Positions 24,885 through 63,735 of a stretch of 64,000 nt of DNA are shown here, in pieces (the first letter of the stretch is position 1; each line of letters starts with the position of its first letter). The translations under genes and the position numbers were made by a program. The notes under the pieces were generated by a model. That model made no database searches. It was not told the DNA's origin and worked only from the letters and a program-made list of their open reading frames with translations. This DNA comes from Phycisphaerae bacterium (GTDB lineage Bacteria > Planctomycetota > Phycisphaerae > Phycisphaerales > Phycisphaeraceae), in the NCBI GenBank assembly GCA_030432595.1, contig JAUIGU010000012.1, positions 1-64,000 on the forward strand. The letters run 5' to 3'.

Positions 24885-24958
<74 letters not shown>

Positions 24959-34620: not shown

Positions 34621-34735
34621 GACCAAACCTCCCGTCTCGAGGAACCGGCCACAAAAGTGTAATCGACCCGCCGCGGTTCCCGGATTCTGCGCTGGGTTGG
34701 CCCGCCAATCCGCCGATCCCGCCCGGCGTCGCGGC

Positions 34736-35113
34736 GTAAAATGGGGGTGCAGATTGACGGGCGTGGCCTCCGCGTGGGTGCCAGGTGGGTGAGGGCTTGA
34801 GTTCCTTAATCACGAAACGACGTGTGGCCTGGAAGTGGAGCAAGCCGAGACGGACCTCGGCCGACACCGCGACCCGCCGGAACCCCCCGAGTGAGTCCCA
34901 TCCGAAGCGCGGTGACGGCGGGTTGCAAAACCGACGCCGGCCGGGGGTCTGAATGGATCGTGACGACGGTCCCGCCCCGGGTTGTTTCGAAGCGAGTTCA
35001 TAGCGAGCCGGGCCGTGTCGGCCCGGATGCCGGACACCGGGGTGACACACCCCGGCTCGCTCAGAAGCGCACACGGTGTTCTTTCAAAAGTGAAGCAGGG
35101 GCGTTGTCGTCCC
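34736..35113 (+). repeat. Dispersed 380-bp element, copy A
   Basis: This intergenic segment matches 61034-61413 in the same orientation over its whole length, with long identical runs (for example around 34763-34812 and 34891-34943) and a few indels. It contains a long imperfect hairpin at 35002-35061. The rest of the 541-bp gap between the lipoprotein and methyltransferase genes shows no gene. Open frames across the two copies shift relative to each other, so the element is not protein-coding. Confidence 0.88.
35002..35061 (+). repeat. Long imperfect hairpin within dispersed element A
   Basis: The outer 11 bp (AGCGAGCCGGG against CCCGGCTCGCT) pair perfectly; the inner part has a few mismatches compared with the perfect 24-bp stem of copy B at 61302-61359. 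This suggests the stem is under weaker constraint here or is decaying. Confidence 0.75.
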
Positions 35114-58539: not shown

Positions 58540-60480
58540 TCACGCCGGCGTGAACTGGGCGTACTGCTCGGCGGTTGCGCCGTCGAGGCAGGCCTCGATG
58601 ATCTGCGTGCCCAGCTTGTCCAGGCCGGTGTCGTCGCTGAACTTTCGGATCTGTTCGTGGAAGAACCGGGTGAGGATCTCCGCGCCCTTGTCGTAGCCCT
58701 CGGGGCCGACCTCTTTCTGCGACGCGACGTTGAAGAACCACGTGCCGACGATCTGGCCCTCGACCTGGATGGTGTCGGGGTGGTGGCCCAGCAGCGGGCA
58801 GCGGGCCTTGGAGAGCTTCGCCGGGTCGAACGTTGCCGAACCGCGGCGGGCGAGGTACTCGCGCGCGATCCACTGCGGCGCGAAGCCGACCTTCCAGCAG
58901 CCGATGTGCTGGTTGGGGATGAGCACGAACAGCGTGTCGGCGGTCTCCATGACCTGGTCGAGCAAAATGTTCGCCTGGTCCACGCGTCGGCCGGTCGCGA
59001 AGGGCCAGTACGACCCGACGCCTTCCGAACTCATGCCGCCGGTGTCGACGATGGACGGGTTGCCGTGTCCGCGCGGCGCGACCAAGCGCCACAGCCACGC
59101 CAGCGCCGGCGGGAGGATGTGGAACAGGCCCATGATGCCGTAGGTCGGGTGGTCCTTCGTGCACGGGGGGCAACGCACGCCGAAGCTGCGGATGTCCACG
59201 GTGACCGGCTCGGAAACGATGCCGGGGTACTGCGTGCGCGGCAGCACGACGCGTGGGTTCGGGCAGGGCTTACCGGGCTCGTCTTCGGTGTGGTCCCAGA
59301 TCAGCGCCGTCGAGCCGGGCACCGCGTCGATGTTGAGGAACAGCAGCGGCGACTTGGGCTCGACGGTGATGCGTTCGAGGTGCGGGTCGATGCCGTAGTG
59401 GTCGATGTGGTTGACGCGTAGGAACCACGCGGCCTCGGCGTCGATCACGCTGAGCTTCTTGAACTTGCTGTCCGCATGCTGCAGCGACGGGTGGCAGAGC
59501 GCCATGTCGTCGGTGACCGGGCGCAGCTCGCAGCCGCGCGGGAGCGTCATGTAGCGCTTCTCGCCGTCGATCAGGTTCTCGCCCTTGAGCAGCCGGCCGT
59601 CGGCCTCGCGGTGCATCTGCTCGAGCATCTCGCTCTTGCCACCGCCACTGGCGCCCTCGTGCATGATGGTTGTGACGTTGTCGTAGGGCGTGACGACCTG
59701 CACGGTCGAGCAGTGCGCGGTGGTCCACTGCTCGGCGTCGCGCTCACCGGCGGTGAGGAGCATGCCGTACACGCCCTTCTTCGCCGACGGACCCGGGTAG
59801 AGGTTGTAGCTGTAGAGCTCGTGCAGGTTGAAGCCGTCGTCGAACCGGCGGTTGTGCACGACGACCTGCTTGCCGCCGAAGTGGCTGTGGCGGAACGGCG
59901 GGGCGACGTACACGATCGCGCCGTGGTGGTAGTCCTTGCCGGCCTTCTTGATGTCTTCGAGCGGCTTGATGCCCTGCAGCATCGCCAAGCCCAGCGCGAA
60001 GAAGCCCGCGTTGGCCGGACAGATCGCCACGGCGTTGAGCCCCTCGCCGGGCATGCCCGACTCGAAGAAGAAGCACGCCAGCTCCTGGGTCTTGAGCCAG
60101 GCGAAGGTCTCCTGACGCAGCTTCTCGAAGTCGCCGAGCTTCTCGCCCCACTTGGCCTGGAACGTCGGCTTGTCGGTCGCGCGGTCGTCGGCGATCACCA
60201 TGCAGTCGGGGTCGCGCCGGCGCATGTAGGCCTCGAGGTAGTTCGCGCTGATGCCGTTGCGGACGCGGCAGACTTTGACTTCTTCTTTGAAGTCCGGGCT
60301 GTCGGTGCCGGGCACGTCGTAACCCACGGTGTAGTACCCGCGCGGATCGACCTGATCCTCGGGCACGGCGAGCGCGAGCAGTTCGTCGACGCTGCCGACC
60401 AGGTGGACCTTGGGCGCGGCCTTGAGCACCTCCATCGCGGAGTTCGAGAGCGTCAGGTCGGGAAGTTCGGACAGGGGCAT
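58540..60480 (-). CDS. DUF4914 family protein, PEP carboxykinase-like
   Basis: 646 residues from the ATG at 60480, with GGAG about 12 nt upstream. A P-loop-like HEGASGGGKSEMLEQMHRE lies at about residue 285, followed by LTLPRG-type strands and a nucleotide site resembling PEP carboxykinase (FLNIDAVPGSTALIWDHTED, VLPRTQYPGI). DUF4914 proteins share the PEPCK fold but their reaction is not established, so a kinase or carboxykinase activity is inference. It is a single-gene unit, with the repeat-rich gap upstream. Confidence 0.75.
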   Translation of the reverse strand: MPLSELPDLTLSNSAMEVLKAAPKVHLVGSVDELLALAVPEDQVDPRGYYTVGYDVPGTDSPDFKEEVKVCRVRNGISANYLEAYMRRRDPDCMVIADDRATDKPTFQAKWGEKLGDFEKLRQETFAWLKTQELACFFFESGMPGEGLNAVAICPANAGFFALGLAMLQGIKPLEDIKKAGKDYHHGAIVYVAPPFRHSHFGGKQVVVHNRRFDDGFNLHELYSYNLYPGPSAKKGVYGMLLTAGERDAEQWTTAHCSTVQVVTPYDNVTTIMHEGASGGGKSEMLEQMHREADGRLLKGENLIDGEKRYMTLPRGCELRPVTDDMALCHPSLQHADSKFKKLSVIDAEAAWFLRVNHIDHYGIDPHLERITVEPKSPLLFLNIDAVPGSTALIWDHTEDEPGKPCPNPRVVLPRTQYPGIVSEPVTVDIRSFGVRCPPCTKDHPTYGIMGLFHILPPALAWLWRLVAPRGHGNPSIVDTGGMSSEGVGSYWPFATGRRVDQANILLDQVMETADTLFVLIPNQHIGCWKVGFAPQWIAREYLARRGSATFDPAKLSKARCPLLGHHPDTIQVEGQIVGTWFFNVASQKEVGPEGYDKGAEILTRFFHEQIRKFSDDTGLDKLGTQIIEACLDGATAEQYAQFTPA

Positions 60481-61033
60481 CGCGGCGGCTCCAAAACGGG
60501 GTCGGGCGGGGTCGTCGGCTTGACGGTTCGGTTCGCGAGAGAGCGGGTCTCGGCAGGCAGGCCGATGGGCGGCGGTTTCACGCCGACCGGCCTTTATACC
60601 CACCGGCGGAGACGGCGGCAAAACCGACGGCTTTGGTTCACTCTCGGCGGGGGAGGCTTCCAGCCTGTCTCGGCCGCAGGGCGAATTGGGTCACGGGATC
60701 ATTCCGGCCGGTCCTTCCGCCCGGGACAGGCAGCATGCCTGCCCTGCCCCAGCAAAGCGAACCACGACCAAACCGACCATCCCCGGCCGTGGTTCGCTTC
60801 CGATCAATATCGAGCCGCGGCCGCGAGGGTGCGGGTATCCGGCGGCATGTGCCCACTCCCTCACGGTCGTGGCTCGTCAGAATAAACCTCCGACCCCGTC
60901 CCAAACCACATCTTTATGAAATCTCCAAAGCAAGGGCACGCCCAACCGGCCGGCAAGGCGAGCCCTTAGGCATGGGCGCGGTTTCCTGCGCACGGTCTGC
61001 CCAAGACTTCAGAAAGCTCATGCTGACCCGCGG

Positions 61034-61413
61034 GTAAAATGTAAGTGCAGGTGAGGGGCGTGGCCTCCGCGTGGGTGCCAGGTGGGTGAGGGCTTGAGTT
61101 CCTTAATCACGAATCGCCGTGTGGCCTTGGACGCGGGTGGATCGGGACGGAACCTGATCGCACGCCGTCTCCCGCCGGAACCCCCCGAGTGAGTCCCATC
61201 CGAAGCGCGGTGACGGCGGGCTGGAAAGCCGACGCCGGCCGGGGGTCTGCATGGATCGTGACGACGGTCCCGCCCCGGGTTTGTTTCGCAGCGAGTCCAA
61301 AGCGAGCCGGGCCGTGTCGGCCCGGGTTCCGGACACCGGGCCGACACGGCCCGGCTCGCGAGAGGCGCACACGGCGTTCTTTCACAAGTGAATCCGAGGG
61401 GCGTTGTCGTCCC
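61034..61413 (+). repeat. Dispersed 380-bp element, copy B
   Basis: Same orientation and extent as 34736-35113, with long identical runs and several small indels. It includes a perfect 24-bp hairpin at 61302-61359. The element begins GTAAAATG and ends GCGTTGTCGTCCC in both copies, suggesting defined ends. Confidence 0.88.
61302..61359 (+). repeat. Perfect 24-bp hairpin in dispersed element B
   Basis: The arms 61302-61325 (starting GCGAGCCGGG) and 61336-61359 are exact reverse complements around a 10-base loop. This would be a very stable stem in RNA or DNA. Confidence 0.9.
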
Positions 61414-61445
61414 CAAAACCGTCCGTGTCATGTGCACGGATAGCC

Positions 61446-61486
61446 GGAACCCGCCGGGTTCCGGACCGGGAGCCGCCGGCTCCCGG
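61446..61486. repeat. Two adjacent hairpins with GCC triloops
   Basis: GGAACCC-GCC-GGGTTCC (61446-61462) and CCGGGAGCC-GCC-GGCTCCCGG (61466-61486). No T-run follows. Confidence 0.75.
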
Positions 61487-61668: not shown

Positions 61669-63573
61669 TCACACACCGCGGCGGCGCATCAACGCCACGA
61701 ATGCCACAACACCCAGCCCCACCGCCGGCTCGGGCACGTCGCCCGGGTCGGTCGCGAACTCGGGCGGGGTGTCGCCCCAGTGGCTCAGCACCAGATCGAG
61801 ATCGCCCTGTTCGACCTGGCCGGACTTGTTGAGGTCGCCGTCGGCGTAACCGGCGGTCGTGCTGCCCCAGTTCTGGAGCACGGCGTCGAGGTCGCCTTGC
61901 TCGACCTGCCCGGAAAAGTTCGCGTCGCCCAGGAGCGCGCCGGTCAACGAACGCCAGACGGTGTAGTCCGCCGCGTCCACCACGCCGTCGCTGTTGCCGG
62001 TGTCGTCGAGGTTGAAGATTTCGGTGTTGGGGGTGACGTCCCCGAACGCCGCGAACAGCGCGTCGATGTCGTCGGCGTCGCTGAAGCCGGAGAAGTCGAA
62101 GTCGGTGGATTCGCGCGGGGCGGGCAGGAGCTTGCGGACCCAGCCGTCGTGCTTGTTGAGCAGGTAGATCGCGCCGTCGGCGTCGTTACCGAAGCGCAGG
62201 TCCGAGCGGTTGAGGTTGAAGTTGCCGGTGGTCTGCTCGACCAGCGCCTCGAACGACGCGAGCGGGTTGCCGTTGCGCGTGAGGCGGAGCTTCTCGAACG
62301 GCGCGAGCAGGCCGTCGTTGAGCGAATTGACGTTCGAGAAGTCGTCGCGCTCGATGAGGTCGACGGTGTCGATGATGTAGATCGGGCCGTCTTCCTGGTT
62401 CGCGAAGTCGGCGAAGAAGTATTTGTCCTGGAGTTGGGGCAGGGCGTCGTCGTGGTAGACGAAGCCGCCGACGACCGAGACGCCGGCCTCCTTGATGTTG
62501 TTGTTGTTGAAGTCGTGGTCGTACTGGGCGACGGGGTAGGTGAAGTCGTCGGTGGCGTGGTTGGCGGGCAGGACGAAGATGTTGCCGCTGTTGTCGTTGA
62601 CGAACGTGCCCTCGCGGATGTCCCAGCCGTAGTTCGCGCCGGCGCGGCCGACGTTGATTTCCTCGACGCTGTCCTGGCCGATGTCGCTGATGAACATCCG
62701 GCCATCGCCGCCCTGGTCGGTGGGGTCCCACGCGAAGCGGTGCGGGTTCCGCAGGCCGATCGCCCACAGCTCGGGCGCGGCGTTGTTGACGGACACGAAC
62801 GGGTTGTCGGCGGGGACCGCGTACGCGTTTCCGCCGTCCGGCGTCGGGTCGATCCGCAGGATGCCGCCCAGCGGGGTGTCGAGGCGTTGGCCGGCGTTGA
62901 CCGGGTCGCCGCCGGCGCCGCCGTCGCCCAGCGCGATGTACAGCTTGCCGTAGTCCGGGTCGGTGTCGGCGACGGGGTTGAACGCGAGTTGCCCGATGTT
63001 GTGGTTGCTGAACGGCTGGGCGATGCGGATCACCTCGCGGCGCGAGTTGGGCACGACGGCGAGCGTGCCCGGGTCGAGGGTGAACTCGGCGACGACGGAG
63101 TGGTGGTCGGTGCCGAAGCCCGCGGGCGTGGCGTAGTCGGGCGTGCCCAAGCCGTTGTTGGCGCTGTAGGCGACGTAGACCTTGTGCTCACCGGCGGCAC
63201 CGGGCGTGGTGAAATCGGGGTGGAACGCGAAGCCGCGCACCCCCATCTCGAAGTTGTCGGCGAACCCGGGCATCGCGGACTCGTTGAGCACCAGCGACGC
63301 CTGGGTGTCGCCGGGCGAAAAGCCCCACAGCCGGCCGCGCTGGTCCGACACCACGAGCCGGCCGCTGCCGTCGGGCACATACGTCAAATAATCCAGCCGC
63401 GGGTGGGCGCCGATGCCGCTCACGGGGATGCGGATCACGTCGACGACCTCGGCGGAGAGCGTCGAGGTCGGGATCGTCGCGTTGATCGGGTTCTCGCGGT
63501 CGAGCTGCTGAGCCCGCACCGAGAAGGGAACCGACACCGCAACACAAAACAGGCCGACGCAACGCGCACGCAT
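61669..63573 (-). CDS. Secreted PQQ-type glucose/sorbosone dehydrogenase with dockerin-like modules and PEP-CTERM tail
   Basis: 634 residues from the ATG at 63573, with GGAGAAAG upstream. Signal peptide to about VRAQ; then a six-bladed propeller of the sugar dehydrogenase family (DYLTYVPDGSGRLVVSDQRG, FAFHPDFTTPG, LYIALGDGGAGGDPVNAGQR, WAIGLRNPHRFAWDP, ISDIGQDSVEEINVG). Three dockerin-like segments follow (FDFSGFSDADDIDALFAAFG, DANFSGQVEQGD, DLNKSGQVEQGD) and a tail VPEPAVGLGVVAFVALMRRR. It probably oxidises a sugar outside the cell with PQQ; PQQ binding is not proven by visible residues alone. Confidence 0.82.
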   Translation of the reverse strand: MRARCVGLFCVAVSVPFSVRAQQLDRENPINATIPTSTLSAEVVDVIRIPVSGIGAHPRLDYLTYVPDGSGRLVVSDQRGRLWGFSPGDTQASLVLNESAMPGFADNFEMGVRGFAFHPDFTTPGAAGEHKVYVAYSANNGLGTPDYATPAGFGTDHHSVVAEFTLDPGTLAVVPNSRREVIRIAQPFSNHNIGQLAFNPVADTDPDYGKLYIALGDGGAGGDPVNAGQRLDTPLGGILRIDPTPDGGNAYAVPADNPFVSVNNAAPELWAIGLRNPHRFAWDPTDQGGDGRMFISDIGQDSVEEINVGRAGANYGWDIREGTFVNDNSGNIFVLPANHATDDFTYPVAQYDHDFNNNNIKEAGVSVVGGFVYHDDALPQLQDKYFFADFANQEDGPIYIIDTVDLIERDDFSNVNSLNDGLLAPFEKLRLTRNGNPLASFEALVEQTTGNFNLNRSDLRFGNDADGAIYLLNKHDGWVRKLLPAPRESTDFDFSGFSDADDIDALFAAFGDVTPNTEIFNLDDTGNSDGVVDAADYTVWRSLTGALLGDANFSGQVEQGDLDAVLQNWGSTTAGYADGDLNKSGQVEQGDLDLVLSHWGDTPPEFATDPGDVPEPAVGLGVVAFVALMRRRGV

Positions 63574-63735
63574 GACACTTTCTCCAATCAACACCGACAA
63601 CGAATCACGACCGGTGAATCACCGCGAACCGGGCATTGTACCCCGGAACGCCGAATCTCCATGAAACACAAAAACGCGGGAAGTCAAGTGATTTTTGCAT
63701 CGGCCCGCAGGTTTCGACCCGGCCGGAGCGCCCGG

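Follow-up and report, generated by a model that had tools for sequence, protein, structure and literature searches.

Two similar intergenic segments lie on one strand of the window, by which the whole analyzed stretch of 64,000 nucleotides from a Phycisphaerae bacterium is meant, at positions 34736-35113 (copy A) and 61034-61413 (copy B). The question raised by this locus is what kind of element is present twice, with a non-autonomous mobile element, a family of structured RNAs and a simple segment duplication as the candidates first put forward. Positions, strand and intergenic location of the pair are as given in the original prediction, and so is the hairpin, which is long and near-uninterrupted in copy B and less perfect in copy A; identity between the two copies is 87% over 378 columns, and, as stated in the original prediction, open frames are not maintained from one copy to the other. 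The element belongs to a family of dispersed repeats built around a predicted RNA core. With a probability of about 0.42, it would represent a genus-restricted family of large structured RNA genes of ~350-530 nt, each copy of which serves its own stretch of chromosome in a chromosome-organizing capacity.

Copy number and build of the repeat family

In a search of the genome of origin (G000; 4.39 Mb) with a 35-base core pattern, allowing at most three mismatches, 44 copies of the subfamily of the window pair, subfamily A, were found and not two, 23 in forward and 21 in reverse orientation, the control giving 0. Of these matches, 43 have no mismatch and the remaining one differs at a single base; a narrower, earlier pattern had given 38 places. 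Other copies match copy A with E-values as low as 1.6e-143, which is not chance. Simple segment duplication is ruled out by this copy number, and covariation is also present. The second species included, G001, is a Phycisphaera MAG of the same genus. A pattern for the 3' end was found at 45 places in G000, at 40 places in G001 and at none in the other 99 genomes searched, and reading of these places revealed two further subfamilies, the diverged B in G000 and C in G001, the latter at 40 places. With contig-edge pieces of B added by a separate B query, the total for G000 comes to 80 pieces, distributed over 48 contigs; 24 of the pieces lie at most 500 bp from a contig end. This total is equivalent to ~68 copies of A and B. 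One match (G000 C53:38386) is coding sequence and was excluded from the spacing counts, but the counts of 67 and 107 places and the 20 B rows still contain it.

Both proposed ends of the pair turned out to be internal to a larger unit. Conservation starts ~48 bp further upstream, at TGCGCT/A (34688 and 60987), and on the 3' side it continues beyond GTTGTCGTCCC into small palindromes in 30 of the 40 A copies examined, copy B included, while copy A is among the 10 of 40 without this palindrome tail. In order, the unit has TGCGCA, ~25-50 variable bases, a motif like GGGTAAAATG and the RNA core; the exchangeable palindrome comes next, and a small stem and the terminal hairpin GGGGCG..CGTCCC make up the 3' end of the unit. 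The features of the two window copies are as follows.

34688..35113, + strand: copy A, predicted RNA unit of subfamily A without 3' palindrome tail (match to model R1 at 34758-34919, 102.7 bits)
60987..61486, + strand: copy B, predicted RNA unit of subfamily A with 3' palindrome tail (match to model R1 at 61055-61217, 102.3 bits)
34688..34693 (copy B 60987-60992), + strand: conserved 5' end motif TGCGCA, in copy A TGCGCT
34761..34795 (copy B 61058-61092), + strand: near-invariant core block, at 44 places with at most one mismatch
34784..34789 and 34772-34774, + strand: predicted long-range helix of copy A, 5' side, GGTGGG and GCG
34897-34902 and 34908-34910, + strand: partners of this helix in copy A, CCCATC and CGC
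61081-61086, 61069-61071, 61195-61200 and 61206-61208, + strand: predicted long-range helix of copy B
34811..34824, + strand: covarying hairpin CACG/CGTG (CGTG/CACG in 6 of 38 copies)
34844..34861 (copy B 61141-61158), + strand: covarying hairpin GCCGAG/CTCGGC, in copy B ATCGGG/CCTGAT, with both-side changes in 6 of 6 pairs
35002..35061 (copy B 61301-61359), + strand: exchangeable palindrome; similar palindromes are free-standing in related genomes
35098..35113 (copy B 61398-61414), + strand: 3' terminal hairpin GGGGCG..CGTCCC, its pairing kept despite sequence changes as judged by eye
61423..61486 (copy B), + strand: 3' tail of three palindromes, as in 30 of 40 A copies examined

As predicted from sequence, all subfamilies are built alike: each has TGCGCA on the 5' side, a multi-branched core that a long-range helix closes off, a single palindromic arm of the exchangeable kind and a terminal hairpin on the 3' side. 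The unit is thus modular with an exchangeable internal module, as in BOX elements: the palindrome is of the GAGCCGGG type in 35 of 40 A copies and of another type in 5, and among 19 B copies (20 rows less the false one) it is GCGGCCGA in 11, of the GGTGCC type in 6 and neither in 2. The hairpin featured in the original prediction is the least fixed part of the unit.

Several observations concern the modules themselves. The palindrome of the B unit is also free-standing in G000 (C38:282514-283360, C69:62088, C17:130636 and C17:158894), and the GAGCCGGG palindrome gives short matches in several relatives. An extra conserved stretch upstream of TGCGCA, CTCCGCGCCTCCGCGGTT and similar, is common to B copies (e.g., L143 and L122), which makes the B unit the longer of the two. 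In three A copies, at the ends of G000 contigs C8, C37 and C19 (L369, L259 and L273), the 3' CCGGAACC palindrome is interrupted at an identical position by one and the same insertion. It starts with CTTTTTGCGCC and has an ORF beginning MERKIF, and the contigs end within it; it is probably an insertion sequence targeting the CCGGAACC palindrome.

Constraint and covariation in the RNA core

Diversity per 20-base block among 40 aligned A copies is 0.007-0.05 in the core (columns 81-120 and 201-240), compared with 0.18-0.44 in the 80 columns before the core blocks. RNAalifold, applied to 32 core sequences of A, B and C, found unaided a long-range helix that joins the 5' block to the motif GAGTCCxxTCCGAA. 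The helix reads GGTGGG/CCCATC in A, GGTCGG/CCGATC in B and GGCGGG/CCCGTC in C. Across the three subfamilies 99.7% of cells are paired versus 94.0 after shuffling, and changes on both sides occur in 18 cells versus 4.8. The helix scores 0.177 versus 0.077 for shuffles (0 of 500 as high) and 0.055 for the best slid version, a control with a bias towards the helix structure, itself derived from the same data. Two of the five measures are no better than shuffles, namely the pairs changed on both sides (3 versus 1.9, reached by 50 of 500) and the pair types (6 versus 5.9), and the changes in this helix are mostly fixed between subfamilies and hence represent few independent events.

Within subfamily A (38 copies), 8 pairs are changed on both sides versus 4.7 in shuffles (reached by 9 of 500), as are 46 cells versus 11.5; the pair types do not exceed those of shuffles. 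Compensatory changes at paired positions are found, and they exist already between copies A and B, where GCCGAG/CTCGGC (34844-34861) is matched by ATCGGG/CCTGAT (61141-61158). RNAalifold on A alone and folds of single copies prefer other pairings for the region of the long-range helix and for the conserved arms, which in the A-only folds have almost no variation to guide the choice of pairing. The suggestion of a structured-RNA family was supported by copy number, by compensatory changes within and between subfamilies, including hairpins that covary within A, and by a core that is near-invariant in 40 copies.

In both window copies the sense strand folds better than dinucleotide shuffles (z -2.7 for copy A and -6.2 for copy B). 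The antisense strand of copy B does so as well (z -3.8 versus -6.2 sense), because of the palindrome. By consensus energy, the sense strand has a clear advantage in B, some advantage in A and hardly any in C. Ratios of G-U to A-C are 454:33 in A, 345:19 in B and 140:17 in C on the sense fold, and the G-U excess is smaller on the antisense fold, with 154:99, 114:58 and 125:40, respectively. The RNA would be made from the strand as drawn. A pattern scan for sigma-70 promoters and intrinsic terminators gave none near copy A; TTGAC/TAAAAT, considered as a promoter, has too short a spacing and was rejected.

A covariance model was built from 21 sequences of A, B and C and run over contig C38, most of C17 and the window, in all 849,801 bases or a fifth of the genome. 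The scan returned 15 full copies of at least 101 bits and one contig-edge piece of 30 bits. Since nothing else scored above 17 bits, no copy was missed and no half-decayed copy exists in the scanned fifth. Strong constraint and copies that are alike within each species, as in multi-copy RNA genes, would also suit a trans-acting regulatory RNA needed in bulk, whose many copies were dispersed by chance rearrangement and whose spacing is a by-product. This explanation is improbable; it gives no reason for regular spacing or for the mutual avoidance of A and B described below, and a canonical promoter was not seen at copy A.

Spacing and chromosomal sites

The units keep their distance from each other. 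Of 32 gaps between neighbouring pieces on the same contig, one is below 25 kb. With gaps handled as survival data, G000 has 1 neighbour within 25 kb versus 22.4 expected (P of one or fewer, 4e-9), for a pattern noticed and tested on one and the same genome. By bin, 1 neighbour was seen versus 12.3 expected at 0-12.5 kb, 0 versus 10.1 at 12.5-25 kb and 11 versus 4.8 at 50-75 kb; by subfamily, the numbers within 25 kb are 1 versus 8.0 for A-A, 0 versus 3.6 for B-B and 0 versus 10.6 for A-B. The 56 copies away from contig ends have 1 neighbour within 25 kb versus 15.2 expected. The sole close pair, on contig C65, is 9.5 kb apart and inverted. For 70 positions compiled earlier, the coefficient of variation of the gaps was 0.40 versus 0.94 simulated (0 of 5000 as low), and the gaps are more regular than plain 25-kb exclusion would make them (0.355 versus 0.497, P 0.017; the distance of 25 kb was picked with the data in view). 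G001, which is too fragmented, has 0 neighbours versus 2.9 expected (P 0.056). Even spacing hints at either a chromosome-wide job or an element avoiding insertion near itself.

A link of orientation to replication was rejected, as there is no relation to local GC skew (positive in 16/41 A, 11/25 B and 23/40 C). B copies have the same orientation in 19 of 20 same-contig pairs; on the two big contigs the skew sign is alike and the B orientation opposite.

On the preferred reading, each copy would act on its own ~30-75 kb of chromosome, copies too close together being redundant or harmful and over-long gaps disfavoured. The folded RNA, or its transcription, would bind a nucleoid protein or palindromic DNA, and the bound units would mark or bridge domains, for which the nearest precedent reported is naRNA4 of E. 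coli. New sites would be reached by some duplication route, with selection keeping the spacing. Such a chromosome-organizing role appears to be the likeliest mechanism. Its fuller version, in which the chromosome is partitioned by about seventy near-regularly spaced RNA genes whose locally made RNA marks or bridges ~60 kb domains, with A and B interchangeable, is somewhat less probable. Counted against the organizing reading is that unit positions are mostly not common to G000 and G001.

The comparison of sites was based on ten locus pairs with shared genes, and in none of them does a unit lie in a demonstrably identical gap in both species. For four G000 copies, each a member of B, G001 has a unit with matching orientation no more than a few kilobases away, so that some positions may be ancestral. 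At G000 C42:39783 the site is occupied, and the same two genes are ~110 bp apart in G001, without a unit. At the recognizable neighbours of the window copies in G001 (C22 and C228), no 3' end is listed nearby.

Differing positions, this clean empty site and the neighbouring genes without an element in G001 would suit a structured RNA carried by a non-autonomous mobile element, the movement of which is effected in trans and limited by target immunity over ~25 kb. So would the ends common to A, B and C (TGCGCA and the 3' hairpin), the palindromic modules and the exclusion zone shared by A and B, which would follow because both carry ends recognized by the same machinery. This possibility has to be taken seriously, albeit tentatively, and it accounts for the exclusion nearly as well as an organizing RNA does. 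The difference in positions and the one empty site would thus favour the mobile element originally envisaged, and the signs sought at its borders were not found. Target-site duplications were sought in the flanks of 39 A, 17 B and 15 C copies, the 3' boundary of A and B being uncertain, and no excess of alike flanks emerged (own versus shuffled, 3.87/3.97 for A, 2.82/3.05 for B and 3.67/3.56 for C). No terminal inverted repeats were seen by eye at the unit ends, PF07282 (TnpB-type) is absent from both genomes, and no decayed copy was found in the 849,801 bases scanned. Constraint and covariation inside the unit and a spacing somewhat more regular than plain exclusion likewise stand against it.

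A further explanation is a repeat of the BOX or MITE type that is parasitic and serves no host function, its spacing arising where recombination removes the sequence between close copies. It would agree with the modular build and the intergenic sites, with the inverted orientation of the sole close pair and with the downstream gene, which is convergent in 69 of the 102 places having one (P 0.0005; simple ORF caller, one place false), as described for pneumococcal repeats (PMC3049150). However, A and B are too unlike for ready recombination, yet avoidance is strongest between them (0 versus 10.6), which recombination purging does not explain; this explanation is disfavoured. The core is, moreover, near-invariant in old, diverged copies, and remnants were not found in the scanned sequence, which makes a purely parasitic origin unlikely.

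The reading of RNA genes that each serve their neighbourhood is preferred because the regular spacing shared by A and B, the constrained RNA core and the lack of decay fit it best; the mobile element is mildly disfavoured because the spacing is more regular than exclusion requires, because the copies are old and because neither ends nor remnants were found.

Distribution, comparable systems and genomic neighbours

The family appears to be confined to one genus. A strict 3' pattern, run on a collection of 84,980 species that may omit the genome of origin, was found on 33 contigs, all of Phycisphaera sp. IP29b_bin.17. Covariance-model scans gave G000, G001 and one 32-bit match in G129 among 400 genomes of the order, and G000 only among 392 genomes of the phylum; the G129 match, considered as a distant homologue, was taken as chance (E 0.006 for one genome). 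Both scans used five candidates per genome and strict filters, by which distant relatives were possibly missed, and these loose scans gave no clear homologue outside the genus. No literature on this repeat family was found among licensed PMC papers.

At the gathering cut-off, the sole match of Rfam 15 in the whole window is a tRNA at 24885-24958. A permissive search gave RNaseP-T at 15.9 bits (cut-off 60) and, on one C copy, microRNA hairpin models only, with mir-B6 at 32.2 bits (cut-off 89) on the palindrome. A group II intron or other Rfam RNA was accordingly rejected, no intron domain being found even at E up to 5. Phage or plasmid origin was dismissed, as copy A matches nothing in phages or plasmids and the 3' pattern nothing in viral contigs. 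The same holds for a TnpB guide RNA of the IS605-like type: PF07282 occurs in 0 of the 2 genomes (control, 6 of 14), and conservation extends into the 3' flanks of many A and B copies.

BOX elements of Streptococcus pneumoniae are described as modular repeats that are scattered over intergenic regions and predicted to fold as RNA, with an optional internal module whose presence has little effect on the rest; they are over-represented between convergent genes, and the authors favour parasitic elements (PMC3049150). The present family resembles them in being a dispersed intergenic modular repeat predicted to fold as RNA, in its optional or exchangeable module and in its excess at convergent genes. 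It differs from BOX as described there in its larger core, which covaries across diverged subfamilies, in its even spacing and in the lack of decayed copies in the scanned part.

To our knowledge, the sequence of naRNA4 is unrelated to the present unit. According to a review, naRNA4 is a noncoding RNA from palindromic extragenic repeats (REP325) of E. coli that acts in nucleoid condensation via cruciform DNA with HU (PMC6907758). Palindromic extragenic repeats as RNA source would be the common trait; contact of the present RNA with the nucleoid would be a guess. Repeated, evenly spaced sites are shared with matS, given as about one per 35 kb in the Ter domain (PMC6907758), and with DNA uptake sequences, for which even spacing is cited in a paper that doubts whether evenness suffices for chromosome compaction (PMC1939737). 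Unlike the present RNA units, both are short DNA words and not RNA genes.

GOLLD, ROOL and OLE are few-copy RNAs. They are presented as large, ornate, structured bacterial noncoding RNAs (PMC12286853). The present unit is likewise a large structured noncoding RNA with no known protein product, as predicted, but has no Rfam match at the gathering score and ~68 copies per genome.

Bacterial dispersed repeats are usually taken for parasites, and the present family combines a clearly constrained RNA core with intact copies and a spacing rule common to two diverged subfamilies. Should the spacing be functional, it would amount to an RNA-based organization of a bacterial chromosome; should it be immunity, the family would be a mobile RNA-bearing element with exclusion over tens of kilobases and without visible transposon ends. 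We know of no earlier example of either.

A link to PEP-CTERM genes was considered and is not claimed, as the enrichment is not significant (22/177 neighbours versus 61/767, P 0.08; control beside empty gaps, 7/112); on the upstream side alone, a post hoc count, the figure is 14/75. PEP-CTERM-like tails are seen on genes adjoining several copies, including the gene at 61669-63600 of the window, which has a GSDH domain. The upstream neighbour of copy B, at 58540-60621 on the opposite strand, encodes a long protein matching DUF4914 (980 bits).
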